A DNA stretch of 64,000 bases from Tetrahymena thermophila SB210 (lineage: Eukaryota > Ciliophora > Oligohymenophorea > Hymenostomatida > Tetrahymenidae). Positions within the stretch are counted from its first letter, which is position 1; the number at the start of each line of letters is the position of its first letter. The notes beneath the pieces were generated by a model. That model had not been told where the DNA came from. It searched no databases and saw only the letters and a list, made by a program, of their open reading frames with translations. Location: contig NW_002476559.1 in NCBI RefSeq assembly GCF_000189635.1, forward strand, positions 1,798,001 to 1,862,000, in the 5' to 3' direction. Position numbers and translations under genes: made by a program. Positions 131 through 35,860 of the stretch are shown here, one piece after another.

Positions 131-2887
131 GTAATAAATCAATAAATGAGATTCAATAAATAAATAAATTTATTTATAAACTAATAAAATCTAAAATTAA
201 AAAAAATTTTATCAAATTTATTTTATTTTATATTTATTTGTCTTGGTAAATATATTTTATTGGATAGGTTTAATATAAATTTTAAATATTTACATAATCA
301 TTTAAAATATTATTCTTATTTCTTATAAGCTGATTTGACTTAAAAAGAGTAATATATATAAATAAATAAATTTTTCATTCTTAAATTCTTCAAAGATTCT
401 TCCTTAAATTAGATTTGATTAATCAAAAAGTATTAAAATTTAAATTAAATAACAATATTTAAACAACTATAAATAAATATCTTTTTAATTACAAGGGTAA
501 AAAATTGGTTAATATTTACTTTCTTTAAGATATTTCCTAATGTAGCTTTTTCATTCGCTAACCCAATCTATTGTTTTTATTTTTTCTAATAAAAATTAGG
601 TTTGATAATTTATAAAAAGATGATCACAATATATATATTTACCTATAAATAAAGAGGATCTACATCAACTTTAAATAATTTAACAAATAAATATGTAGTA
701 TTTAAAGAAATCAATATTCTTTTATTTCTTTTATTTGAAGACACACTAATTTTGTTGATTTTCTATACATATTTCTGATCAGACTTGTTTAAAAAGAATA
801 ACTAAAACCTGCTTAGCTTAAGAATTAATAAATAAATAAATAAATAAAAATAAATATTTAAATTATTAGCTCTATAATAATATAATTTTACTTTATGTAA
901 TAAATTACAAGCTTATTTAATTACTTAAATTTCAATAAATTTGAAATCAGTTATTCTACGGAACTAATAATACTGAATCCTAATCTTTAAATATTAAATT
1001 ATTCATTTAAATTTGTATAAATAAATTTGTATTAAACCTTATTTTCAGACTAAGTGAGCTAAGAAATTAAGCATTCAAAATATCTTAAAAATATTATTTC
1101 TTAAAATAACCTCTTCACATAATTAGTTAATTTAAAATATGGTTAAACATTATAATTAATTTAGAGAGAAAGATCATTTAAATTCTTTTAAATTTAATAA
1201 AATATAAATTTTTACTATTGGTTTCCAATATGTAAGAACTATAAATTTGGCATTTATGAAACAATATAACATTGACTATCTACTATACTTTCAATTGTCG
1301 GCTCAAAGTTATTCTATCTTTAATTAAATTTAAATAAAATTATTAAAAACTTAATTAATTTAAAGTTTTTACCCAACATCTAAATAGAATAATTTTAAAT
1401 TCCTAAAACCTAAAAGCGAAGTGTTCAAAATCTTAAATCCGTAATTATCCATTCCACATTTGCTTTATTAAGATTTAAATAATTAAAAAATGTATTTATT
1501 TATTTATTTATTTATTTATTTATTTTAAGAATATATTATGAATACTTTAAGTTCAGTTTTAATGATTATAAAGACATGAAATTGTAAAGGAGTAAACTTA
1601 TTTCCTAAACACCTTCTTGCTTAAGTGGGTTATCTCTTTTGATATTTATTTAAAGCATAAATAAATAAATAAAAAATTTTAAGTAAAGTAAGCAAATAAG
1701 TACTTTAAATTTAATGAAAAATATTCTATTTATGACAGTTTAGATAGGTATTAATTGATATATTAAGCTCCTATATAATTTATTCCTGTTTTTCTTAAAA
1801 ATAATAATTTTTTATTGAGAAATTAAATTTAATTTCTGTTTTTTTTACTGCAAACCCAAAGATAATTATTTTATCTAGCTTAGTAAGCATAAACTTGGAA
1901 GAAGATCTTTTAAATCAAGAATCTCTATCTAATTTTTTCTATAAACCAATTAATTATAAATTGATGCTAAAAATATTTGTTAATTTTACTTGAATTGTAA
2001 ATTTAGAAATTAAATTTTTTTGTTTCTTCTCAAAAGTTCTGCTACCAATTTTATGGTAGGTCTTCCTAATGAATAAGGTCTTTTATTAATTAATTTTATT
2101 ATGAATTTTTATAAACTTTTCAATCAGCTTACGGAAAATTAATAGTAAGATCTATTATATTTGTTAGCTGATCTATTTGTGTTATTTACTATAGAGCAAC
2201 GAATTGTTAAATTTTATTACTTAAAAATAAATTAAAAAAGTATTTTTAATAGTTTAATTAATATTAATGTCAAACTTTATTAGATCTAATCTTAGCTTTT
2301 CTAAGTTATCATACTAAACATCCTAGACATAATTTTATTTAATATTATTTTAATTTCACTTCAAAAAATCATTTTCTTTACTTTTGATTTGCATTTATTA
2401 TCGTTTGGGAGTGTGTTTAGCATTAAATTTTTATCAAAATAAAAAATTTACAGCTTATTTAAAGTTATTTAATTAGTTATTTATTTATATTAATTTTAAT
2501 TTCTTTTAAAATTCTCAAAATTTTTAAACTCAAATTTTAGAATTAAATTTTTATAAGTTAACAAAAGTATTTTCTGTATTCTAAAAACTACATTTTATTA
2601 TTTAATTATTTTAAGAAGTTTTAAATAAAATAATTAAGCAAATTTAACTAAATATTAAATGAAATAAAAATTAGTTTTTATTGCATAAAATATATTAATT
2701 ATTAATTGAATTGAAGGATTAATCATTTTTGAAAATTTTTTAGATAAAACATTTTTAGCTCAAATTTTTTGTAGCATTTCATGCTCTAATTAAAAAACCA
2801 ACAGAAATTAATTAATAAATTAATCGAAAATATCTTTAATTATTTATTAGAATAAAAAATTTGTGATTGAAATATTAACAGATAGAT
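131..2887. other. AT-rich intergenic spacer
   Basis: About 2.75 kb of nearly pure A/T between two + strand genes. Only simple repeats stand out, chiefly the TTTA run near 1493-1526. No ORF with coding-like codon use, RNA gene or mobile element was seen. The promoter of the nuclease-fold gene must lie in its right part. Confidence 0.6.
1493..1526. repeat. (ATTT)n simple repeat
   Basis: About eight tandem copies of the tetranucleotide ATTT in the spacer. This motif recurs in nearly every spacer and many introns of the window. Confidence 0.9.
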
Positions 2888-4555
2888 ATGAATATTAATT
2901 TACTCAAATGCTTAAAAGAATAGGAAGAATATGATAATATTCTCAAGAAAAACTTTTCAGGGAATCTTTGCCCTTCAGACTACAAGCAAGTAACTTCAGT
3001 GTTTTACTAGCTGAAAAATGAAAATAAATCTAAAGATTCTAAATTATAAAGATTTCATAGTGACTTGAAACAATTAAAAATATTGACTATAAACATTGCA
3101 GAATTTTCTGAATAAAGAGTCGGGCTGGCTCAATTAGAAAAGATAATTTAGTCTGAAGAAGTAAAGGGAGAAGTAGATATTATATGTTTAACTGAAATTC
3201 TAGCTGAGACATGGAATTAGTTTGTAACTGAGCGAATTTTCGAAAATAAAAAACCTGAAAAGATGTCAGTAATTAACATTAATGGAGTAAATTACGAATG
3301 CTTTATTAACTTCTCTAAGCAATTATCTTAAAGAAGTAAGGGAAAAACTAAATTGAGGAGCTTAGAAAATAATAATATTGCTGGCTGTGCAGTTTTGATT
3401 AGCACTAAATTTAAAGAGAGACCTCATACAGTTATGTTTGATATAAATCCCACTTTTGAATAGTAGGAATAGTTTGCAATAGATGAAGAAAATTATCTTT
3501 GTTTGGATTAAGAGGGACGAATAGTTACTCTTCTTTTCAATAAATTTTGTTTAATAAGCATTTATGCTCCTAAAGACTCCATAAAATACTAAGAGCAATT
3601 TGATATTTGGTAATAATACTTCATAAACTACATATAAAGTCTCTAAAAAGAATTAGATAAGGATTATACTTTCATTTTAACAGGAGATTTCAACATCTAA
3701 AGATCGCATTAAACCTACTAAAATTTAGTACAAATTTGCGTATTAGAAGAAGTGAAAGGGATATCACATTCCTTCTACAAATAAAATAGCTAAGATAAAC
3801 TTTAAATAGATTACACATTCGTATCAGCAAATAACAAGCTATTCAAAAGCATGAAAACTGAGCTTGTGTAATCCTTTGACCACTTATTAGAATTAACCAA
3901 ATATCACATACCATTCTAAACAATATTCTAACATGAAATACAAGCCTAAAATCTCAAAAACCCTAAAACTAATAAAATCAAATAAGACGAGGATAGTGAA
4001 GAATCAGAAGATGATATTTAATATTTAACTTCAATGTAATTAATTAATTAAATCTAATTTCATTTAAAATATTTAATTTAAATCATTTATTTTTTGTCAT
4101 TAAATAGAAATAACAAAATCAAAGCTGCTTAATCCTAAATAAGCAATATCAAAGAAGAACCTTAATCCTAAGAAGTAAATTAAGAATAAGATGAATTTAG
4201 CTTTTTGTAATTATTTTTTTATTTTATCTATTTATTTACTTACTTTCTTTCTTATTTTCTTATTTTTTTACTTACTTACTTACTTATTTTTTGCTAAAAT
4301 ATATTTAATATTAAAAGGAACTAGAGATTATCAGAGCTGAACTTAGAAAATTAAAATATTAATTAGAGCAACGATAGTCAGATTCAAATCAAAGTAGTAC
4401 AAGATTAAATAATAGATTAAAATGAAACAAAATAAGTGTAATATAATAATTAAAATAATTTGAGCCCAAAAAAACAAAAATCTCATGGAATTCACAAGTA
4501 ATTTTAAATTCCTTCTACTATTAAAACTTATAAATCAAGTGAAAGCCAATAGTGA
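2888..4555 (+). CDS. Endonuclease/exonuclease/phosphatase (EEP)-fold protein
   Basis: Exons 2888-4035, 4108-4206 and 4318-4555 give 494 residues ending at TGA. The first half carries the EEP (exonuclease III/DNase I-like) signature in order: LTINIAE strand, the metal-binding Glu in ICLTE (about residue 103), LISIYAP, LTGDFNIQ (GDFN at about 266-269), IDYTFVS (about 307), and the terminal SFDHL (about 329-333) carrying the catalytic Asp-His pair. These residues act together in phosphodiester hydrolysis in the family. The last roughly 120 residues are Q, N, S and K rich and look disordered. Which branch it belongs to (AP endonuclease, deadenylase or other) cannot be told by eye; no reverse transcriptase is near, so a LINE origin is unlikely. 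The first intron (72 bp) is a multiple of three and lacks TGA, so its removal is inferred from base composition. The gene is convergent with the golgin gene. Confidence 0.75.
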
Positions 4556-5110: not shown

Positions 5111-8100
5111 TCAAAACCAACTTTTCTTTTTTGTTTTTGATCTGGCTGAAATAATATTATCTTTTTCAGGTTCGCTGAATTCTAGTAAGTTAAGCATAAC
5201 ATTCAGATATTACGTAGCTTCTTGGTTTTGGCTTTCTGTTTTGCTCTTCAGTTATCTATTTATGAAAAAATATTTTATTTTTTAGTTTAAGATTTTTTTA
5301 TTTACATGATATTTAAGAATTTAGGGAGGATTGTCTTGAGAGTTTGTTTGATAATCCTAGAGCCTTCGTCTATGTTTTAGGATTAAAGCTGCTTAATTTC
5401 TTGTTTTAATAAACTTATTTGGCTTTGAACTCTCTCTTGCTCGTTTTCGAAATCTCTTATTTCCATTTAAAGTCTCTCATTTTCTAGCTCTAACTAGTCT
5501 CTTTCATAAGTGAGGTCTTAAACTTAGTATTTTAATTCTCTTACTTCGTCTTTAAGTTGCTAAATTAAAATAAAATAAATATTTTTATTGCTTTTATTTA
5601 AAGTAATTTTACTTGTAGATTTTTAGCAGATTTTTTAGGGGAAGCTGATGGAGAGGAAGGCTGCTGTATTTACTGCTCCTTAGGGGAATGAGGGTTTATA
5701 TCGATTCTTGACACATCTGGGTCTTTTTCATTTATGTCTTGGACAATTGACCTTTTTAGAAGCTTTTAGACATTTTGAAGTTCTTAAAGCTTTTAGTTTA
5801 AGAATGCAATTTGCTCATCTTTTTCTTCCAGCTTTGCTTGAAGTTTTTCTATCCTTTCATTATCTAAAGTTCTGTTGGAAGTAGATTTGTGAATCTTTTC
5901 CATCAACAATCTGAGATTTTAAGAAATAGAATTTGAGCAGAAAGATTGATTCTTTTCTATATCGTTTAGCTCTTCGTTGCAATCCATATCCCAAACAATC
6001 TTCTCCATAGCTTAATCAATTTTTTGTAAGACTGCAAAGCCTTCTTCGACACTCAAATTACTGTTATATGGCTAGTTATTTTAAACGTTAGTTTCTTCAT
6101 CCTGCTAGTTATTAGCATTAAAGTTCAATCCCTACAGGATATTCGATTGCATACTGTTAGAGTTGCGGATATTAGAGTTTTATTAATTGTTTTATTAAGA
6201 TCCAGATGCTTAAGCAAAGCCTCTTCCTAAAGTATTGCTTGCATTTATGTCATTCACATTGACAACTATTTCGGCTGAAGTGTGCACTGATCCTCTGTGA
6301 GCATCTTCTTAATGAATGTAATCTTCAAACTAATTTTCTTCAAATTGACTTCCTTCCTGCTCTAAGAAACTAATATTTCTGATTTTCACATTCTAATTCT
6401 ACAGCTGATTGGGGATATGTTGTTGTTATTGTTATCTGTTATTATTATTTCCTTCAGTGCTGTAAACTGTATATTCTTACTAAGAGCTTAACTTGTCTGC
6501 ATACTATTGCAAGAATCTGATCTCATTTTCTTTTTCAATAAGCTTATTCTTAACATTATTAAACTCAATAAGTAGGTTATGGTATTGCTATTCTTATTGC
6601 TCTTTTTATTATATGAATTCCAAGATATTCTATTCGTTTTTCACAATTTACTCATTTTATTTTGATATTTATTCTTGCAATATCTGCACCTGTAGCTCAA
6701 TATCTGTATTTTATGTTTACAAATCTTGTGCAGGTTTCGATGCAGATTAGCTAGCAGTATTTTGACCTGAGACGGGATTAGTTTATTGTAAAGTAACACT
6801 GTTGTCAGCATAATATGAGTATTCTTCCTTCAGTTTGTCATTTTCTTCCTTCAATCTTTAGTTTTCTTGAATCAATCTTTAATTTTAAGAAATCAAAATT
6901 TAGTAATGATCTTTTTCTGCAGATGTTTCTTAGTTATTTTCTCTTCTTTGCATAGGAGCTTCGGCTTAAACTTTGAGCTTTATTTCTTCGTTTAGGAGGT
7001 TGCACTTTTCTTTTTCTTAATTAAGCAAGGACTGCAGATTTTCAATTTCCTTTTTATATTATAATATAATTTTGTCTTGATCTTCTCTGTAAGATTCTAC
7101 TTTCTTTGCTCTGCCAAGTGACATAGTCGGTGATATATCATTGTCACTTCTTAAAGTAGCTGTGTTATGGTCATTAATTGAGTGTGTTGATTGGATAAGC
7201 TCTTATGATTTCTTAAGAACTTAAATCTCGTCTATCTTTTTATGAAGATACTTTTCTTATTATAAAAGTTAATTTTGCAAATCTTAGTTAAGCTGTTTTT
7301 CTTGCTCAATATTTTGCTTCAATTCTTAAACTTATTTATCATTTTATGTAATTAGTTGCTTTTGTTCTTCTAAATTTAATTTATATTAAGTAAGTTCGTC
7401 TTGCAACTTAGAAATTTGTTCATCTTTTTGTTTGATTTCTACTTCATGCTTTGATTATAAGTCCTTTTAGGTGTCAATCAATTTTTGTTAGAATTCTTAT
7501 TGATACTGCTTCTTTAAATGAGCAGATTCTTAAGCATGAGTGCTTTTAATCAATTTAAGCTAATCTTCGTGCTAGGCTTAAAAGTTTTCATATTTTTGTT
7601 AAACAATTTAGTAATCTTCTTTGCAATGAGTAATTTCTTTTTGCAAGTTGGCTTTCTCAAATTTTTCTTTCTGTATTTCATGTTAAAGATCAAGGTATTT
7701 TTGATTAATTTATTTAATTAAATTGTTAAGTTGCTCTACTTCTGTTTACAAATCCTCAATTTTAGTGTTTTACTGATTGCTATTTTCATTCTATAGAGAA
7801 ATTTGTTGTTTCAAATTACTTTATTCTTTTAAACTTTCTTCAAGCTTAGCATTTGTCTGATCTAACTAAGCCTTGAATTTACTTATTTTCTCTTAGTATT
7901 CGCTCTTTTACTCATTGAATTCAGTTTCTTTTTAAGTTAAACTGCTAATTTCATCATTTTATTAAGAAATTTATTACAAAAGTTGATCTTTTTCTTTTTC
8001 TAAAATAGATTTTTCATGCTGGAATGATAGCTTTAATTAGTTTTGTTATTCTTTTTATTCTTCAAGTTAACTTTCTTTAAGTGTAATTGATTCTTCTAAT

Positions 8101-11100
8101 CTAGCCTTTTCTTATTAATTTTTAGCATTTAATTAAGATATTTTTGTATTTGCCTCATGCAATTAGTTATTCAGCTCAGTGTTTTGATTAACAAGATCGA
8201 CTATTTTTTATTCTCTTTAAAGTATTTAGCTATCAGCATCTGACTGGGATTTTTATTGATATTATTTGATCTAATCTTGAAGCATTTGAATGTTATTATT
8301 TGATGCAATAACTTAAGAGTTTAATTATTCTCTAATAATGTTAATTTCTTCTTAAGAAGAGCTACTTAAATCTGCCAAATTTTGACGTAAATTAGCAATT
8401 TCGGTTTGGTGCTTTTCTAATTTTTCCTATAATTACAAAACCTTTCTGTTTTCTTCGTTTAATTATTAATTTAATGTTTCTTCTTTGTTTTTGAAATCCT
8501 TCTCTTTTCTCTCTTTTTCTAGAGTGACTTCGTTAAGCATTTTGGAGATTTCATTCTTCTCATTCTAATTTATATCAATTTTATTTTGTAATTAGTTTAC
8601 ATTTTCTTATAATTCATCTTTATCATATTTAATTTAATTAAGCTATTGTTCTAACTTTTAAATTTCTTCTGCCTTGCTCTGGTCGCTTTATGAAATTTTA
8701 GTTCTTTCTTGTCTTAATTCATTTATGATATCTTTATGAGAAGCTATTTAGGCTCTGAGCATGCTCATTTCCTCTTCTCTTTATTTCTCAATATTTAATT
8801 CTAAATTATTTTTTTCTTTTTCTAAATGTTCTATTTAATCCTTTAAAATTTATATTTCCCTTTCTTTTTCTTTCTTAAGAGTATCATTTTGTTCATGCAA
8901 TTATTATTTAATTGAATTGAATTCGCTTTCTTATTCTTATTTTGCTAATACTTCCTTCTATAGATCTGAATTAAATTACTCTCTTTCTTGATTCAACTGT
9001 TCAGTTAATTCGTTAATTTTATCAATTTACTCATAAACTAAGTTGTTAAGATCTTTAATATTTATTCTTAAATCATCTATAGTTTTTTCGTTCTATGAAA
9101 TAGTTTCATTAAGCTATTTCTCTTTATTTCTAGCCTAAATTAGCTATTAATTGCATTGGTTTATTTAATCTTCATATTAATTTTATGATTATAAGAATTA
9201 TTGGTTTAATGATTCCAATTTTTACTCATATTCTTCAATTTTTTTCTGCTAATTCCTTTTTTAATCAGAGTTTTACTCTAGCTTTTCTTTACTTTTACTT
9301 TCTGAAACTTATAGCTAGTTTTTGAGGTTTTAAATTTGCTCCTTGTGAGATTTAATTTATTCATCTATTAAAGCAAATTCTTGTTCTCTCACTTCCTGAT
9401 TTTGCTTAAGCAATTCATTTTCTGCTTCAACTTCATTTAATTGTTTCTCAAGAATTGCTATTTTCTATTACTTGAAAGTAATTTGCTTTTATAACTCACC
9501 AGCTTTTTCAAGGGAAGCATCAAGTTTTTAAGTGTATTCATCAATGATTTTTTACTAAATTTATAGCTGCTCCTAAGAAATATTCTAAGAAATGTTATCT
9601 TCAACTAGATTTTAGATTTTCTCTTCATACTCCTAGATTTTTTCTTCTAATTATTGAATCTTTTCTTCTAATAATTATGAGTTTTCTTCTTTTTGCCAGA
9701 TATCGTCTTACAATTAATGTATTTTCTCTTCATGTTACAATAATTTTCCTTCTAATTATTTAATTTCTTCTATTTTTAATTGAATTATTTCTTCTTTTGA
9801 TTCAAGGATTTCTTCTTTTTATTGTAAATCCTGTTTGAGTTGTTCCATGCTCTACTCGAGGAAGATTATTTTTTCTTCGTTTCTTGCTGTTATTATAAAC
9901 TACTTCTATAGATCCTATTAGAGCCTTTCTGTTTCTTCTTTTAAATTAGAATTATCAACTAAAATAGTATTCTTCTCCTCAAGATAATTCTTTAACTGTT
10001 CTTGTTTGTGTTAAGCTTATTCACTTAGTTAAACTGTCTGTTGATTTAACATTTTTTAGCTCTCCTCAAAGTCAGATTTTTATTAACTCAACTCCTATTA
10101 TAATTTTTCATTTTCTATCAAAAGACTATCAATTTATTTTTATTAATCAGCTTAAATTTATTAAAACTTTTCTAATTCTTTATCCTAATTGACGAAAGTT
10201 TGTTTATTTTTTTAAATTTCACTTAAAGTATTATAACTACTATTCAGCTATCTGTTTAGAATATCTATTTATCCCTAAAGATTAGTTATTTCATCAGTCA
10301 GACTCTCTGCCTATTCTTCTAAAACTTAGATTTTTTAGTCTTTCTCAATTTAAATAGATTAAATTTAAACATTCTTTTACTCTTCTTACGTTAAATCCTC
10401 TTTTAATCTTTGAATTTAGCTCAGTTAATCTCCAATTCTATTCTGTAAATCTTGAATATCTCTATCCTTTTCTTCAATTCTATTGTTTAGATCCTCAATT
10501 TAATTATCGAAATCGAAATTTTGTTTGCTTAAATCTTAAATCTATGAATTGAGCTACTAAATTTAATCTCTAAGCTAATCATTTTAATCAATTAAACTCT
10601 ACTTTTCTTGCTCTAAAGTATTTAATTGTTATTAGTCTTATTAATTTAACATATCTTCTTATTAATTACCAGATTAAGATAATTTTTATACTTCTTGCTT
10701 TAATTTTAAATTTTCTTTCTAAGCCTCTCTCAATTTACTTTCAGCTACATCAAGCTATTCATCCTTAGATTTATACTGATTTTCCATTTCTTATTTCATT
10801 TCTATGTACAAGTTCATCTATTGCTTCAAGTCTATGATTTCACTAGTCTTCTCTTTCAAATTCTTTTCAACATTATCTTCATCATCCTTCATTTTTTACA
10901 GCACACCATTGTACTCTTTAATCTGCTCTTAAAGTATCGAGCAATAATTTTCTTTATCAATCAAGGATTGTTGAACTTATCTCAGCTTATCTTAAACTTG
11001 TTTGTTTATTGTTTTTGATACTTGCAATTCGTCTTAGGTACCTTTGTATAACATCTCATATTCACTCTCTTTCTCAGCCTATTGCTCATACTATTATTAT

Positions 11101-14100
11101 ATTTCAGCAACCTAACTCTTGATCTGCTGCACTTGCTGCATCAATGCGGAGTTATCTTCTCTCAAGGAGCTATTTTCCTCATCTAATTCACTGTTTCTTT
11201 CTTTTAGTTACAAGCAGCTCTCCTCCAGTTTTCTTACTTCTTCAAGTATTCTTTAGTTTTCATTAATCAATTATTAATAATCTCTTGAGAACTATTCGTT
11301 TTCTTCTTTTAATTAATTGTATTTTTTTTGCCACTCTCTTTCAGGCGAATTGCTTAGAGAAGATTGATTCAACTAGTCTTCCTTTTTCGAGCTAAATCTC
11401 CTGGAGCTATTCATCCTCTCACTCTGCTATAATTGTTATTCTTGATCAAATATCACTCTAGATTAACGTTCTATCTGCTTTTAAAGTTTGGCAGATTTTA
11501 AATCGCTTTCAGCTTAAATTTTTTAGAATTCTCTCTGTAGCAAATTGAAGTCACTCAATACCTTCTCACACTCTTACTAAGCCTTCTCGTATTCCTATTA
11601 CCAGAATTAAATTTATTTAGAAGCACTGTGGACCTAATCACTAGTCTATCCTCTTTCATTTCTGAGTCTCTTGAGCTCCTCCAAATTTTCTTCAAGAACT
11701 TTCTGCATTTACTCTCTTTCATTCTCGAAATTGACCTTCTGCATCTCAATAAGCTCATCTTATCTCTAGACATTTTCTTCAATCTCGGAATTCAATTAAC
11801 TGACCTACTCTTGCAAGTACCTAATTTCCTATTGCTACTAGTTCACTTTATCTTTGAGCATTAAATTTTCTTAGTTCATCTCATCAATATACGAGTCCTT
11901 TGTCCTCAAATCAATTTGAAGTTTTTCTAAATCTCTTTCCTGTCCTTCAATTTGCATTCTAGCTAGTTCTAAATCAGAAGTTCCCTCATTGCTTTCGCTG
12001 CTATTTCTATCCTAATTCGATGAATTTTCATTGATCTAATCATGCTTTAACAAGTTATACTCCTCTTTTTCATTTTTAAGTAGATTTATTTCTTAATTTT
12101 AAGCTTAAAGTCTTGAATTCAAGCTTTAATTGCGCTAGGTCAGCTGCTGAATTTCATTTTAAAATTCTTCAACCTCTCTCCTAAGCAGTTCAATTTCCTT
12201 CTACTTCTTTTCATTAATTTTTTGAGATTCCAAGTATTTATTTTGTTACTACCTTATTTCCTCCTTTAACTCTATAATCTGTTCTTCATTTAAATCTTCA
12301 CTTTCATATTGCTTAAGCATTTATCTATCATCATAAGCTGTCCTCTTTTATTTACTTTAAATTTCATTTAAACTATCATTCAAAGATTAACTAGACTGCA
12401 GTTCAAATTGAAGTCTTTTAATAGTCATATCCTTTTCATTCAATTTATTTTTCTAATTCTAAATTTGCTAATCCAATTTTTCTAACTTTCCAGCAAACGA
12501 CCTCTTTTCATCCTCTATCTCCTAAAATAAAATAAAAAATTTAACATCAAACAAAAAGCATAAAATTTACCTTCTACTTTTGTTGCAAAGATTCTTATTG
12601 AAGTCTGAACTTTTGCTAGAGCTGTGATAGCTCTTTTTGTGTGTCTAAGTTATTTTATTCTATTTAAAGTTTTTCATCAAAGACTTGATTCAATTTAATT
12701 TAAGTTTTATTCAATTTTTCTTCGTATTCATTAATTATTTTTTGATAATCCATGTTGTTCTTAGAATTTTCATCGAGTTGCTGATTAGAAAGAAGCTCTT
12801 ATTACTTAAGTTTGCTGTAGATACCTTCATAGTTACTTTAAATTTCTTTAAGCTTAAAATTCAACTAACTAATTGTTTCTCTTTATTAATCGATATTTAT
12901 TTAACTCTTGTCAATTTATTTAATTAAGTCTTTGTTCTCCAATTGAACTTCTTGCATTTGCATAAGAAGCTATTAATTTTGTTTAAGTAACTCCTAGTTT
13001 TACTTTTACAAATCTCTAATTTATTTTTGCTATTCAGCAGCTTCTATCGCTAAATGTTTTCCCTCTGAATTTTTATGTGAGTCAGACGAACCAAGAATTC
13101 TTGCTTCTTTAAAAGCACGAGTGACTTCTGAATTCTATTTAGCGAGTTCAGCATTTGCTTTAGAAAGTTCTTAATTTTGTTTTGAAAGTTCTGAAATTTA
13201 ATTTGCCAATTCTGAATTCTGTCTAATCTTCTCATCATTTGATCTTTGAAGCTCTGAATTAAGCTTTGAAACTTCCTTGAAAGCCTTTGACAAGTCTTTC
13301 TTCTCTGTGTAAAGCTTTTTATTTTTTTGTTCCAAATCAGCCTAGTTTTACTGTAATTCGCTCATTCTTTTCTTAATCACAGTCAAATCTTAATTAAGCT
13401 CTTCTGTATTAGAAGAATACTGATCTTTATTATTCTATTACTGCTGCTATTGCTGGTTGATTAATTTATTCTTGAGATCATTAATAATCTAATTTAAATT
13501 CTCAACTTGCTCATCAGATTGAGAATACTTTTTCAGCTGAGTAATAGCTTGCTATTGATCTGAAATCATTTTTTACATTTTCTTCCTTTCGTCCTTACTC
13601 TTTTCATATTTAGATTTTACCTCTTTATAGTTTCTTTGCATTTCTTGGATCTTCTGTTCAATGATATCTCTTTCTCTAACTACTTCATTGAATTATACTT
13701 ATTACTGCTAGTACTTTGAGAACAGCTAACTATACTGTGAAGAGTTATCATCATTGTATTTCGATTACTTTTATTGTAATTATAAATAAAAAATATATAT
13801 CTTAAGCTAAATTTTACTTAGCTTGATTTATCTTTCTATCTGAAAATATCTAATTAATCTCTCAATTATTCTATTCTTTCTCTTTATCTGCCATTTTCTT
13901 CTTATAAATCAGAGTTTATGCTTTATTCTCTAAATAAAAAAGTAAGAATTTATGATATTATTTTTCCAAAAGAAGATAAATAAAATAATCAATTAAATTT
14001 AAAATTACTATTAGAGCAAGCTCTTTAAGTTTTATAATTATGAATCAAGCTGCTTTATAATTTCAGATTTTTAACTATTTTCGCTTATTAAATTATTTTA

Positions 14101-16847
14101 AAGCTGATTTGTGAGATTTTCTTAGCTTTAAATTGCTATTTGCAGTTATTATTCGAGTAATTATATTTGATTTTCATGCATTTTATAAGAATTAACAACT
14201 TCCTTTATAGCTCCAAGAGATTCTCCTAAGTTCGAAATAGATAAAGAAACCAAGTTTCTTTCATTCTAATTCAAAGTTTCTACATCACTTTGAACTTAAT
14301 CTTAAATTCTTAATTAGTTTAATAAAATTTACAATTCTCCAATAAACTTCTCAGTTTCTTTTTCTTTCAATAAAAATTATTCTTAAAGTTATTCGTTTTC
14401 TCTTTCAAGCATGATATTCTTATTGCAGTATTCTTCAATTTACATTCTAAGTTCTGCAATGTCCTATTTGTTACCTTCCAAACTATTTGAGCTTCCAACA
14501 CTTCCTTTAAAAAATTATAAAAAAATCTAAATAAAACAAAAAAGCAAAATAAAATTATAAAATAACAAACAAAAAAAATCTTTAACCAACTTAATCAATA
14601 AGTATTTTATTTATATTATTCAAATTTATCTTTAAAGCTATTAAAAAAACAAATTTTTTATTGAGACAAATAACTAAAAAGTGTTAAAATAAATATTTAA
14701 ATAAACGACTTATTTTTATCAAAAAAACAAATTTAAATTGAAGTATAAAATTCTTAAAGTTATTTATAAAAATTTTGATAATTGATTAATTAATTAAATA
14801 AATAAATAACTCATTTAGTTAAAATAAAAAATAAATGGAAGAATGGATGGATTATTTTTACTTGAAAAATGAATTTAGATCTAAAAAATTTTGTTCTAAA
14901 TTAAATTCAAATCATTGAAATGAATTGGCTTATTTTATCTAAGAAAATATTCTTTTTTATTATAATATTTTTAATTTATTTACCATGTTCTTGGTCATTT
15001 TCAACATCAGGATGAGTAGCTTGGTAATCTATCAACTCTATCATTTAGTTGTTAATGTGGCTTATTATTTATTAAATTTCCTAGCGCTTTTGAGTCGGTA
15101 AATTAGGGTTATTTTATATTATATCTACTAAATTCTCACGTTTAGCTTCTAGGTCCATTTTTTTAGCTCGAATAAGCTATTCTTGATTGACTGTATTTGC
15201 ATTTTAATTTCTCTTGCTAGTGTTGTTTGATAAAGTGAATTCGATAGGACTTGATAAATCTATTTTATTGTTACTTGTTATGTTCCTTTTTGATAGATTA
15301 AGATTCTTAATTTAGTCTTCTAGATTTGCAATTATATCATTTTTTTAATTCACTGCCCTTTCAATTTGATGGAATTGATTCAAAAAAGATTTTTCTACTT
15401 CAGCAAGTTATCTAGCGAAATCATCTTTTATTTAATTAATAATTATAGAATTACTAGCAGCAGCTAAAGAAGCTGAATTTTATTATATAGCATTATTGAA
15501 ATTATTCATGTTATTATTATTATTGTTGTTGTTTGCCTATAGCATTTTAATTTAATCGTCTTTTTATTGAAGAATGCTGTAAACTTATTTCAAACTAGCT
15601 TTTCTGTCTGCAGACTTTTTCTCTACCTCAGCTAATTTAGCTTTTAAAGTTTTTATTTTGGTTTACAAAACTTCATTTTCATCAGATAATATTTTGTTTT
15701 CATGCAAGACATTTCTACTTTCCTGCATTAACTTTTGAATTTATTCTTTTAAATAATTAACTTCTTCTTCTTTTTAAGACATTTAATATTCTGTTTGCAT
15801 TGTTATCGCCTCCTTGTCTTTAAGTATTTTATTGTATTTATATTTATAATATTCTTTCTCGCTTCTATTTGCTTTACTCTCTCTAATCACATGAACAATT
15901 TATCTGTCAATATCTTCATTTTCGTTTGTTGGGTAAGTTTATTCTAATTGATCATCGTAAGGCGAGTGTTATTGCCTATTATTATAATAAGGAGACTATT
16001 GATTATTATTATTATTATTATTATATGGTGATTGAGATGTTCCTTAATTTTGATTTTCATTATTCCTATAAGGAGAAGCTCTTATCACCCCAAATTATTG
16101 GTGAGGTTGAAACTGCTGCAATTATTGCTATTATTTTTAAACGATGTTTTACACTTGGGCTATATTATCAATATTATTCCTATTATTATTTATAGAGCGA
16201 TTGCTATGATTTCTAGGTTAAGGAGATATATTTTGTTCTTATTACATATAATTTTAGTATTAACTCTATCTATTTATATATTAATTATTCTAATTTTATT
16301 GATCATTTCCAACAAATCTCCCTTACACACTGCTTCTCTTTTTATTATAAGAGTTTTCATCATTGTTTGAACTTGGAAATTTGGAAAATTTTTCATTGTT
16401 TGCAGCAAATCCATTTGATTAAGCCAACACTTATTTATTTTTTTCAGTAATGCTTCTTTAGCCATCTTAATTATTGCCTTTATTTTAATGCTAAATTTGA
16501 GATCCATTGTTATATTTATATAATGAACTATTGTTAAATTAGTTATTAGAATCTTAAAATATAGATGAATTTCGAGAACCGTGAGTGTTAACAGAATTTT
16601 TCATAGAATCCAAAACCCTCTTCTAAGGGCTTGATTATATTACTTCATCAGAATAGTGAGTTCTTCTCTCCTCTTCAACCATAGGACTTATCTCTCCCCT
16701 TTCAATATTATTTATTTTGTTCATAATATTCTCATTTTTTTTCTCTACATACTTAATCCTATTCTTCAAGAATTCAAACTCCAAAGATAAGTCTCTCATT
16801 TTCTCTTCTTTGTCATCCAAAATTGACTTATTCAAAAATTCACTCAT
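5111..16847 (-). CDS. Giant golgin-like coiled-coil protein with C-terminal GRIP-like domain
   Basis: Seven exons read on the minus strand: 16847-14984, 14504-14009, 13929-13818, 13767-12571, 12521-5613, 5559-5306 and 5255-5111. They sum to 10,977 nt, or 3658 residues, with all phases consistent; many checked places in the 6.9-kb exon show no in-frame TGA. The start begins MSEFLNKSILDDKEE. Residues about 80-320 are N/Q/S rich and look disordered, and about 320-3550 are almost continuous E/K/Q/L heptad coiled coil. The last 67 residues match the GRIP pattern: TLKTILPKFL (family YLKNVVLKYM) then YLNVMLNLLEFSEPEKDNI (family LLPVIATLLQFSPEE). GRIP domains bind Arl1 GTPase and dock golgins on the trans-Golgi; tethering of vesicles is the inferred role. 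The family's Arl1-contact Tyr is Thr here. It could instead be a cytoskeletal coiled-coil protein if the GRIP match is fortuitous. Confidence 0.8.
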
Positions 16848-30086: not shown

Positions 30087-33000
30087 ATGAGGTAAGAAGA
30101 TGAAAACTAAAAGGGGAATTTATTACTTTCTCCTCCTATCTAGTAGCAACAAAAGTTCTAAGAATGTCAGAAGAAAAAGGAGTTTAAGTGGACTGAAATA
30201 GTTGCTGAGCAAGAAACTGTATCGGAATACATTCTTTCAACTATTGCTAACTGGGATAAATTTCCTTTGAATATGAAGATATAAGTGTTAGAATAATTCA
30301 ATTTAATGATTGAGTCGACTAACTTTGAGGAGGAGGAAGATATTGTTTTGAAGTCCAACTGCAATTTCATTGATATGCTTAAACATAATAATCCAAAGAT
30401 TGTCTAAATAACTCTTAAAATACTCATTCTATACACACAAAAAGCATAATCGATAAGTAAAACATTCACTTCAATCTTCATAGCATTTCAAACATATTTT
30501 CATTTACAAATACGGTGAATTGTACAACATATTCATTCGATCATCCAAATGCTTAAAATAGAAATTAAAATATTTACTTTTTTATTATTTTTTGAAGATT
30601 TATTTGCTAGAAATCGATAGAAATAACTCCATTTCTAACTAAATAACTTCGCATTATTCAAAAATAACTTAATTTTTAACAAATATTTAGATTACAACGT
30701 GCCTCATTTAGTCAGTTAGCTGATTTCAAAAGTCATGATTAGAAAGGAATTCAGAGAGGCTACAATAAAACTATTTATGCTCATATTTAATAAATGCAGA
30801 GACGGACTAAACTTTGGAATATAAGAATTATTCTCGTCTTCAGCTCCTAAGCCTATTTGTGAGACTCTTAACTTGTTTGAATTACTCTTGCTCAAAAAAG
30901 AAATAGGAATGAAGGAATTTCTGAAACAGTATCTTTCTTAAGTATACGAATACACGCAAAATCAATACTAAGAAGTAAGATCCTAAGCTCTTAAACTTTT
31001 TGTTTCTCTTATAAAAGAGTATGGAGAATCGTTTATTGTGCCTTATAAATCGAAGCTGAAGAGTAATCAAATAGATTTTGTCAATAAATAATTACAGAAA
31101 GATTCAAATGCTAATTCATTGAAATCGCCTAACATTAAATTAGCTGTAGTTGTTGTCCAAAAGAAGTAGCTTTCTAACCAAAGTTCTCATTCTAATTTAT
31201 CTAGGCCTTCTCAATCTAGCTAAGCACCAAACGAAAAACCATCAGCTGCTACTTTTAAAAAGATTCCAATCAATCACACTTAAAATAACAATAATGGAGG
31301 AGGATCTAACAATGAGGATTAAGCTATAAATAATTAAAAAATAAACAATGAATTGAATACATTATCTCGAAAGGTTATTAAACATTTTGAAAAAAACATT
31401 TTTAAGAAAAAAACTGAGCTTTAAAGTAAAAGTTTAAAAGATGAATAAATATTCAGTATGAATGACTTGTCTAGATCAAGATCTAGCATTAATTCTAAGA
31501 AATAAAAAAAGAAACATTCTGACACATTTAGCTAAGCTGATTAAGAAGACAGCTCTTATGAGAAAAACTCTGAGTTTAGCATGAAAACTAGCAAAGAAAA
31601 CAGTTTAATCGCTAATCCTCAATTAGTTTAACTCAAAAAAGCTACAAATATTTATGAAAAGGCTGTTGTTAAATCAGAATTAGCAGAAATTCTTGAAGCT
31701 GGAATAGGAGAAACTAAAAAAAAATACCATCCTAAGATTGAAATAAAAAATAGAGATAAAAAGGCATCCTCTGTTTATAAAAAAGAAAAAAGTGTTGCAA
31801 TTTCATCTAAAAAGGGCAGCGAACTAGCTTCTGTCTCTTCAAAGGCAGCAATGTCAAAATCATCATCTCAATCGTCTCTGGCTCCTATTTCAAAGAAATT
31901 CAAATCAGAATAAGATTTAGTTTTTAATAAACCAAAAGTAAAATAAGGACAAAGTGATAAACGAGTTGATGTATAAAGCAGATAGTCAATAACTCCAAAT
32001 GGAGTCGATGAAGACTCTTATTATGCAAGCCCTATTCCAAATAAATTTGGAAGCACTAAAAATTCTCCAAATAAAAATGTAGATTTAAACTTAAATACGG
32101 AAGTGAATAACATTTAATACAGCTTTTCTAAAGATCTCAGTGCATAGCAAAACGAAAGTGAGTCTGGTTATAAGTTTTTGCAAGATTTGTTGCACTTTGA
32201 AAATAAAATAAAACTTGAAAACAGCAAAATTTTTAATGATAAGTTTGTTTCAAACGATTCATCAATTCAAATTTAAGAAGAAGAAACACCTTTTGGAATT
32301 GATAATGATGACTTTTATGCTGCTCCAAATCTTGATTACAACTCTGATTCAGATTAGAAAGGTTAATTCAATTAAGATTAGTTTTCAAAGTAAAGAAAAT
32401 CTCCTTAGAAAGCAGATAATGTTACTCCAAATGGAGTTGATGATGATTCTTGTTATGCCTAACCAAACAGTGAACAAGATCTAGACGAAAGCTTATAAAG
32501 TGATAATATTTAAAATGAAGAAACGCAGCAAGGAGATGCCATGCTTCAAAAACTCTAATAAAACTAAGAAAAGTAGTAAACCAAAGTTAAAAAAGATTTT
32601 GCTAAAAAGAAAAACGAAGAGCCGAAACAAAAAAGTAGAAACTCAATTTGCTCATAAAAATCAACACCAAATGAAGATATTCAAAGATAAAAAGAGGAAA
32701 GTGAAAACAAAATGAAGTAGCAGGAAGAAGAATAATAAAATGTAGACAATGAAATGGTGCAAAGCATTGTACTACAGAAAAAGCAATACCAACTTAATTA
32801 AGATGAGCTATCTCAAAGCTTACTTCAAGTCGTAGAAGAAGAATCTAATAAATTGAGTTACGTTTCTGCTGCTAAACAACTTTCAGATATCTCATTATAG
32901 ATGAGTTTTTTTAAGTAACAAGCAGACAATAATAATGATTTGTTAAACAATCCTTCAAATATCATAGAATCAAACTATCTAGGCTAATTAAGTGATGTCT

Positions 33001-35860
33001 TAAAATTCAGTAATAGAAAGGAGCAAAACATTCCTCATTTCTACCAAGATGCCAGTGGAGCAGAGGAAGACAAAGCTAACAATATTAGCAACTTTTATCA
33101 CTTTTAAGACGAACTGAACTTTTAATCTCAGCAAAAAGAAAATAGTTAAAACCAAGAAATTAGAGGATACTTTTTTAACTAGGATTTAAAAGATATCCTT
33201 TCGGTTGTAGAAAGTGCTGAATAAAAGCATTACTTCTTTAATCAATAAAAGCTTCCATAAAATAAATAATAAAACAGTTTATCTCCAAACAGTTAGCAAA
33301 ACAACTAGCTACCAAAGCCAAAAGAATCCATTTAATAAGATAATAAAATTAAGAAAAAAAGTTCAGTACATTCACAGCGCTCAAGACAGCCTTCTCAGTC
33401 TCCTCACAAACAACAATTCTACAATAATAAAGAGAAAAACGGTATTAAAGATGAGGAAAGAGAAAATGCAAAATAAATAATAAACAAATCTTAGTAAATG
33501 AATGATACTGTGCTCAATTCTTACATTTTTCTGTTCAATGACAAATTAGTGAATAAACTTTTCCAATAGCAAAAAGATAAAATTATTTATATAGTCAACA
33601 AGGATACAGTCAATTAATGGTTTAACTCGAGAGAATATGATAACGTCAGTATCATTTCCTTTTTGATTCACTATATAGGACACTAATTCGAACGTGAAGA
33701 TTTTTCCTATCTCTCTAAATTTTGGAATTTCTAGAAATTCTTATCATTTAACAATGCTTTGATTCAGAGTCTTACAATTCATGTCATGCACTAATACTTT
33801 AAGAAAATTTAGAAATACAACTATATAAAATCAAATATTAAGCCAAAATGCTTGAGAGACACCATTAACAAACTTATTAAAATTATCCCAGTTTCAAGAG
33901 ATAAATTGTTTGATGAATCCTTTGCCTTTTTAGATTTCCTATTTGAATTAGACATTTATAACGACTATATCTTCGATGCTATATCTGAAGTCCTACAATC
34001 AAATGTCCCCAAATAAATTGTTTCGTCATTGAGAATCCTTTCCAATTTCTTACGTTTATATGGTGAAAAGCGCCTAAATTCTTTAAAACCATTTATGCAC
34101 ATCATCAAGAGCATATCATTTTCAGCAAATCTCTAAGTGAGAAATGCAGCCATTGAGTTTTACTAAGAAGCATATTCAGTAAATAATAATTTCATTTCAT
34201 TCATTCATTTTTTACCAATGAATTAAATTTTTTAGAATTTCATTTATTATTTTAGATGAATTTCTTAATAAAATAAAATAAACTTAAAATTAATTTTTTA
34301 AGAATATTTTATTAAAAATATTAATTTTAATAAGAAAATCAATAAAAATAAAATAGCTCAAAGCCATAATTTTAATTAGATATTGATTTAATTTTTATTC
34401 ATTTATTACTTAGAAATGCAACATAATTTTAATTCGATATTATTATATTTTTTTGATAATTTATAACTTGAAATTAGTTATTTATTTTATCATAAAACAG
34501 TTTTTAAATATATTTAATTTTGCTTGAAATATTTTTAAATAAAATAGCAAATGAATATCTTGATGTTTTGATTGATTATTGTTTTAAATTAATAAAATAA
34601 ATTAACTAAATTATTATTTATTGTTCAAAATAGTGGATGGGTGACTCTATCTTTGAATACACTAAGTCTTTAAAAAGAACTTAACTTTTATAACTTGAAA
34701 AGGCGTTTTCATAAGTAATTTTAAAAGAAAGAAGACCTTTGAAATGCCCAATAGAAGTGTTTTAGCCTATTATGAATGATTCGCTTTATGAGAAAGAGTA
34801 AAATATATTTACAAGCGATGTTGATGAGGAAATTTAAAAACAAGTATTTTCATTCATTTTTATTAAATTTAATATTAATTTTTTGGACAATATTTAGGAA
34901 TCATACATTAGGAAAGCTCTAGCTGTTCAGGAATGGGTTAACAAAGATGACTTGATTCAAAAAATAGTTGATGATGCTTCTAACTAATTAAAACTCAGGG
35001 AATAAAATTATTCCAATATCATATAAATAATTTTAGAATTGTTAGGTGACTGGAATAAATATTTGATTGAAAACACTCTCATTTTGATTAAAAATTTAGC
35101 ATAAAAACTTAAGAAAGATTTTTGTCAAGGCGGAATTGAGCTTTTTGAAGCTGTTTTTGAGCTTTATTCTGTAGACAAAAGTATTAACAGAGATAAAATT
35201 AGCAAAGCCTTAGTGAGTCTGTTTGTGGTAGCAGGACTTAAGCAACTGCTTAAAATAATCTTAAAAATTCTTGCAAAGAAGAGAAACATTAAAGAAATTT
35301 TAAACGTGCTAAATTTCGGATTAAGGAAAAGTGATGCTGGATGTGTTATAAAAATAATTTAAGAAGTTTAAATCTACTTGAGCGATAAAGACAGCAACAC
35401 TAAGATAGCAGCTTTTGATTTGTTTGGAGTAATAAGATACATTTATGGTAATCCAATAATTGAACAAAATCTTAATTAAGAGTATAAAAATAACAGGTTT
35501 ATACTCTAAAAGATCTAAGAGAGTCATGTTAAATGTGCTAAAATGAAAAGCTTAAGTATTCAAAAGAAGAAGTTGGAAGAACTAAAGAACTCTATCAGCA
35601 ATAGCTATTCAAACTCTGAAATGAGCACTGCTTCTTATGATAAATAATACTTCTATGTCTAAATACAAAATTGCTCTTTTTCTTCTAAGAAGGGTTAAAT
35701 GCCCATATAGTAATTCAAAATATAGAAAAAGTAAGAACTCTTGCAAAAGTAAATGTCAGAAGAACCCATTACAGAGGTCTATCAAGGATCTTTTGTCCAT
35801 GAGTTCTTGTCAGAGTAGCAAAAATAACCTCATTAAAATGAAGATGTAGATGAAATTTGA
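30087..35860 (+). CDS. TOG-array microtubule-associated protein, XMAP215/Dis1-like
   Basis: Exons 30087-30456, 30691-34178, 34634-34843 and 34898-35860 give 1676 residues. Three helical-repeat regions resemble TOG domains: about 30-260 (NVPHLVSQLISK, EVRSQALKLFVSLIKEYG), about 1060-1350 (QVRNAAIEFYQEAYSWMG then LKRTQLLQLEKAFSQV), and about 1357-1580 (SYIRKALAVQEW). The motif of VR-type helix, then G, then L-K-x-x-Q-L-x-x-L-E-x-x-F ends TOG domains in the XMAP215 family, which bind tubulin and promote microtubule growth. Between the first two lies about 790 residues of S/Q/N/K-rich, probably disordered linker carrying three copies of a short motif (see findings). The C-terminal 90 residues are coiled-coil-like and Q rich. 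TOG domains are also found in CLASP and TOGARAM proteins, so the subfamily is uncertain. Start chosen at the only in-frame ATG after an upstream TGA-containing region. Confidence 0.6.

Follow-up and report, generated by a model that had tools for sequence, protein, structure and literature searches.

Organization of the gene

The stretch of DNA analyzed here (hereafter the window) comprises 64,000 nt of the Tetrahymena thermophila SB210 genome (contig NW_002476559.1, positions 1,798,001 to 1,862,000). It contains a gene predicted to encode a giant coiled-coil protein that ends in a domain apparently related to those of the GRIP and GRAB golgins, with a Thr at the position where GRIP domains carry the Tyr that binds Arl1 (Table 1). 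The window uses a ciliate code: translation with table 6 yielded 111 open reading frames of at least 150 residues, and translation with table 11 none. The gene lies in the minus strand, the corresponding plus-strand frame containing stops; an earlier reading of this DNA from its letters only (the sequence-only reading) had not stated the strand. Joining the seven predicted exons gave exactly the 3658 residues announced in that reading, followed by a TGA stop codon. The six predicted introns (479, 79, 50, 49, 53 and 50 nt) are all of the GT-AG type and have a GC content of 9–14%; the figures were 28–31% in four measured exon stretches and 15% in both flanks. The exon borders coincide with these GC steps, also at the 479-nt intron 1 and at the short exon 7, which supports the gene model. 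The last intron has a second in-frame acceptor 12 nt further in, the use of which would shorten the protein to 3654 residues; with this second acceptor (exon 7 from 5243) the alignment to the GRIP domain of another protein of this genome (L001, see below) was longer than with the first (exon 7 from 5255).

Asn and Gln together account for 39 and 47 residues per 100 in residues 101–300, encoded by exon 1, for which the sole Pfam match (Csm1_N, E 0.0016) was below the cut-off. Nothing above the curated Pfam cut-offs was found in exon 1, exon 2, residues 3228–3526 or the C-terminal tail, the regions scanned. Searches of the T. thermophila genome with residues 3378–3526 and with the first 437 residues returned the window gene alone.

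A simple heptad heuristic with a lenient criterion covered 2920 of the 3658 residues. Residues 614–3020 are proline-free except for Pro1616, and direct repeats at 9595–9819, within exon 5, recur at intervals that are multiples of 21 nt, the spacing expected of heptads. By heptads, proline count and DNA repeats alike, the protein is mostly coiled coil, as required of a golgin. The figure of over 3200 coiled-coil residues given in the sequence-only reading was nonetheless too high; since the core contains a single Pro, its ~2400 residues are the safer estimate. Coiled coils rise 0.15 nm per residue, so the core would be about 360 nm long at most.

The C-terminal domain

The residue register of the domain was set by a Pfam match and by alignment to golgin-245. 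The sequence TLKTI (residues 3599–3603) occupies the place of the YLKNV of GRIP domains, and Thr3599 falls at the position of the Arl1-pocket Tyr (Tyr2177 of golgin-245), which bears out the replacement of this near-invariant residue proposed from the sequence. Its codon, ACT, lies within exon 6, away from the splice site. Phe3607 and Leu3635 align with Tyr2185 and Leu2202 of golgin-245, so that both dimer-interface positions are retained, the first with an aromatic residue other than Tyr; Lys3601 corresponds in position to Lys719 of AtGRIP (roles of these residues as described in excerpts of PMC4047078). AlphaFold, run on the single sequence of exon 6, gave one continuous helix (residues 2–82 of 84, mean pLDDT 95.4), which does no more than make such a helix plausible.

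Comparison with known GRIP/GRAB domains indicates a homology that exceeds chance. Aligned with hhalign to a profile of three GRIP/GRAB sequences, the tail scored 29.0 with the second acceptor and 24.1 with the first; 200 shuffled sequences scored at most 17.9 and 200 segments taken from elsewhere in the protein at most 13.6, so that none of the 400 controls reached the score of the tail. A further comparison (compare_proteins) gave a probability of 83.7 (E 8e-6). Finally, a chimera joining helix 1 of L001 to helices 2–3 of the window protein matched the GRIP profile with 36.9 bits (E 3.3e-9), better than the best of 50 control chimeras (E 5.9e-7). The same helices 2–3 also exceeded controls on the GRAB profile (E 2.8e-6, against 3.9e-5 for the best of 25), and the similarity to a GRAB domain is likewise beyond chance. 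Judged by the GRAB chimera, the high GRIP score of helices 2–3 cannot tell the two families apart and is no pointer to GRIP. The reciprocal chimera, with helix 1 of the window protein and helices 2–3 of L001, matched GRIP at E 5e-5 (23.5 bits), a value reached by none of 25 helix 1 shuffles. When Thr3599 was changed to Tyr in silico, the whole window domain matched GRIP with 19.1 bits (E 0.0012), still below the cut-off of 24.4. In pairwise comparisons the tail was more similar to the GRAB domain of L002, another golgin of this genome.

Several results weigh against this relationship. At E up to 10, Pfam returned neither GRIP (PF01465, cut-off 24.4 bits) nor GRAB (PF10375, cut-off 26 bits) for tails of 71 and 67 residues, and neither was among the 25 of 36 Pfam families listed for a 134-residue version; the same scan detected the GRIP domain of L001 at 47.5 bits. 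By profile score the domain is assigned to neither family. The sequence-only reading had counted the lack of a significant GRIP match as a refutation, and nominally this is what was obtained. The signal from helix 1 is weak, one separate shuffle having scored 21.5 bits against 23.5, and this helix contains Pro3605. Golgin-245 alone gave no signal (489 and 498 of 2000 shuffles did as well, and 27 of 100 in another test), a protein search of the same genome with the tail (E up to 10) returned the window only, missing L001 and L002, and a search of the PDB with the tail retrieved no GRIP domain, only USP46 chains (best E 0.35). The GRIP domain of L001 had no PDB match either, so the last result says little. 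Taken together, the domain is, by its sequence, a divergent relative in the GRIP/GRAB superfamily and not an assignable GRIP domain. The earlier label 'GRIP-like' thus holds as regards homology to domains of this type, as seen with hhalign and the chimeras, but 'GRIP' is too specific for a domain that lacks a Pfam match and is closer pairwise to GRAB.

Arl1, GRIP and GRAB proteins in the same genome

The genome encodes a GRIP protein that retains the Tyr (L001). It has a Trp in the tail that follows its GRIP domain, and a probable coiled-coil exon lies upstream. A GRAB golgin (L002) is mostly coiled-coil-like ahead of its GRAB domain, extends ~45 residues beyond it, and also lacks a Tyr at the pocket position. 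A second GRAB candidate (L003) was below threshold (17.2 bits, E 0.527).

An Arl1 gene, split into exons, was located on C60 using human ARL1. Its spliced part had 94 PDB matches at E up to 1e-20, and among the 60 listed the top six were named Arl1. The eight pocket residues given in an excerpt of PMC4956616 (Ile49, Gly50, Phe51, Val53, Trp66, Ile74, Tyr77 and Tyr81) are all conserved in the ciliate protein; Ile49 is encoded just past a splice junction, where the bases agree. No Arl1 was evident among the 30 of 68 genomic Arf-profile matches that were compared by their best open frame; the count of 68 includes exon pieces and Rab-like proteins. Since the same genome encodes both an ordinary Arl1 pocket and a GRIP protein with the Tyr, the loss of the Tyr is particular to the window protein and not ciliate-wide, which contradicts the suggestion that the ciliate in general uses a different GTPase.

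The Arf family is expanded, with five tandem Arf-like genes and a sixth nearby on one contig (C363:163217-169861 and 181315), in addition to a conventional Arf1-like gene on another (C67:144260); these loci are L007-L011, L015 and L020.

Table 1. Predicted exons of the window gene, and GRIP and GRAB proteins encoded elsewhere in the genome
Feature	Position	Strand	Basis
Gene, 3658-residue coiled-coil protein, 7 predicted exons, code 6	5111..16847	-	exon joining
Exon 1, N-terminal 621 residues, N/Q-rich around residues 100-300	14984..16847	-	composition
Exon 2	14009..14504	-	
Exon 3	13818..13929	-	
Exon 4	12571..13767	-	
Exon 5 (6909 nt), bulk of the coiled-coil heptads	5613..12521	-	heptad score
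Exon 6, end of the coiled coil, continuing as helix 1 (Thr3599, Pro3605, Phe3607) of the GRIP/GRAB-like domain	5306..5559	-	
Exon 7, helices 2-3 (Leu3635) and C-terminal tail ARSKTKKKSWF	5111..5255, or 5111-5243 with the alternative acceptor	-	
L001/L040, GRIP protein with Tyr (EYLKNV)	C82, about 141230-143000	+	49.6 bits
L002/L039, GRAB golgin, open frame spanning 1032 residues or more	C429:6903-9998	-	36.8 bits

Comparison with known golgins

Like the GRIP golgins (golgin-245, golgin-97, AtGRIP and Imh1; PF01465), the window protein has a long coiled coil followed by a domain at the extreme C terminus, with an aromatic residue and a Leu at the dimer-interface positions and a Lys that matches Lys719 of AtGRIP in position. 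It differs from them in the Thr that replaces the pocket Tyr, the Pro in helix 1 and the lack of Pfam detection. Hand counts of the distance between this Thr or Tyr and the interface Leu gave 32 or 36 residues for the window protein, depending on the acceptor, 25 for golgin-245 and 31 for L001.

The sequence-only reading held that animal and yeast golgins are no longer targeted to the Golgi once the Tyr is lost. According to excerpts of PMC4791371 and PMC4047078, this is the case for golgin-245, golgin-97 and AtGRIP. For GCC185 the statement fails, since mutation of the Tyr, essential in golgin-245 and golgin-97, affects its localization little, and Rab6 aids its recruitment (PMC4791371, in part). 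GCC185 thus provides a precedent, although it keeps its Tyr, and its unusual Pro lies in helix 2, while that of the window protein is in helix 1.

Possible modes of membrane docking

The explanation we favor, to which we assign a probability of about one half, is that the protein is a giant golgin-type tether whose C-terminal GRIP/GRAB-superfamily domain has abandoned the contact between the Tyr and Arl1. The ~2400 residues of coiled coil would project from the membrane, and a dimeric three-helix domain at the C terminus would dock the tether. Since a Thr stands at the place of the Arl1-pocket Tyr, docking would most likely occur by another contact, which might be with an Arf-type GTPase, like that of GRAB domains, or with an adjacent Rab, as for GCC185; the protein may thus be fastened to the membrane differently, or may not be fastened there at all. 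We infer its Golgi localization, dimerization, tethering and the identity of its GTPase. An unlikely elaboration of this proposal is that the domain is intermediate in sequence between the GRIP and GRAB types and that its recruitment depends not on Arl1 but on a different GTPase, perhaps a member of the expanded Arf-like set of this genome, so that ciliates would have a third membrane address beside GRIP-Arl1 and GRAB-Arf1.

It is somewhat unlikely that the domain is a true GRAB domain that binds Arf1, in which case the missing Tyr would need no special explanation. The closest pairwise similarity is indeed with the GRAB golgins (GMAP-210 and Rud3; PF10375) and L002, itself without the Tyr. 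However, there is no PF10375 match, and helix 1 contributes nothing on the GRAB profile, since a match that includes helix 1 of the window protein does not start before profile position 17. The gain of helices 2–3 over the best control (n=50 for GRIP, n=25 for GRAB) is larger on GRIP than on GRAB. Further, the ARS...W tail ends the protein, as in L001, with nothing like the extension that follows the domain of L002, and L002 already provides a GRAB golgin in this genome.

A decayed GRIP domain, in a protein that now works elsewhere, for instance as a cytoskeletal or cortical scaffold, seems improbable. Thr3599 and Pro3605 both depart from the norm in helix 1, Pfam detects nothing, and the Tyr-bearing L001 is available for the canonical role; but the domain retains helices 2–3, its dimer-interface positions and its location behind the coiled coil, features that would tend to disappear under drift alone. 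A helical C terminus that is unrelated to GRIP or GRAB and resembles them by chance would agree with the shortness of the domain, the lack of any family or PDB match and the failure of the tail to find L001 and L002, but is highly improbable given that no control reached the hhalign score (0/400) or the chimera score (0/50).

If the domain of the favored tether works without the Tyr-Arl1 contact, it would offer a natural test of the way in which domains of the GRIP and GRAB types select a GTPase, with a built-in control in the Tyr-bearing GRIP protein, the GRAB golgin and the intact Arl1 of the same genome. The listed titles and abstract openings of literature on GRIP domains, golgins and Arl1 in Tetrahymena or ciliates mentioned neither this protein nor a ciliate GRIP golgin, which is not proof of absence. 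A GRIP survey used a cut-off of 25 bits outside Metazoa (PMC5840792, in excerpt); our results suggest that surveys with a fixed GRIP cut-off can miss proteins of this kind, especially when the domain is split by an intron.

Other open frames in the window

Two further open frames lie in the plus strand. That at 30549-34259 (1236 residues, code 6) had no Pfam match at E up to 0.01 and no PDB match at E up to 0.001. The second, at 2867-4555, encodes 562 residues with a weak endonuclease/exonuclease/phosphatase match under the cut-off (E 0.00016).
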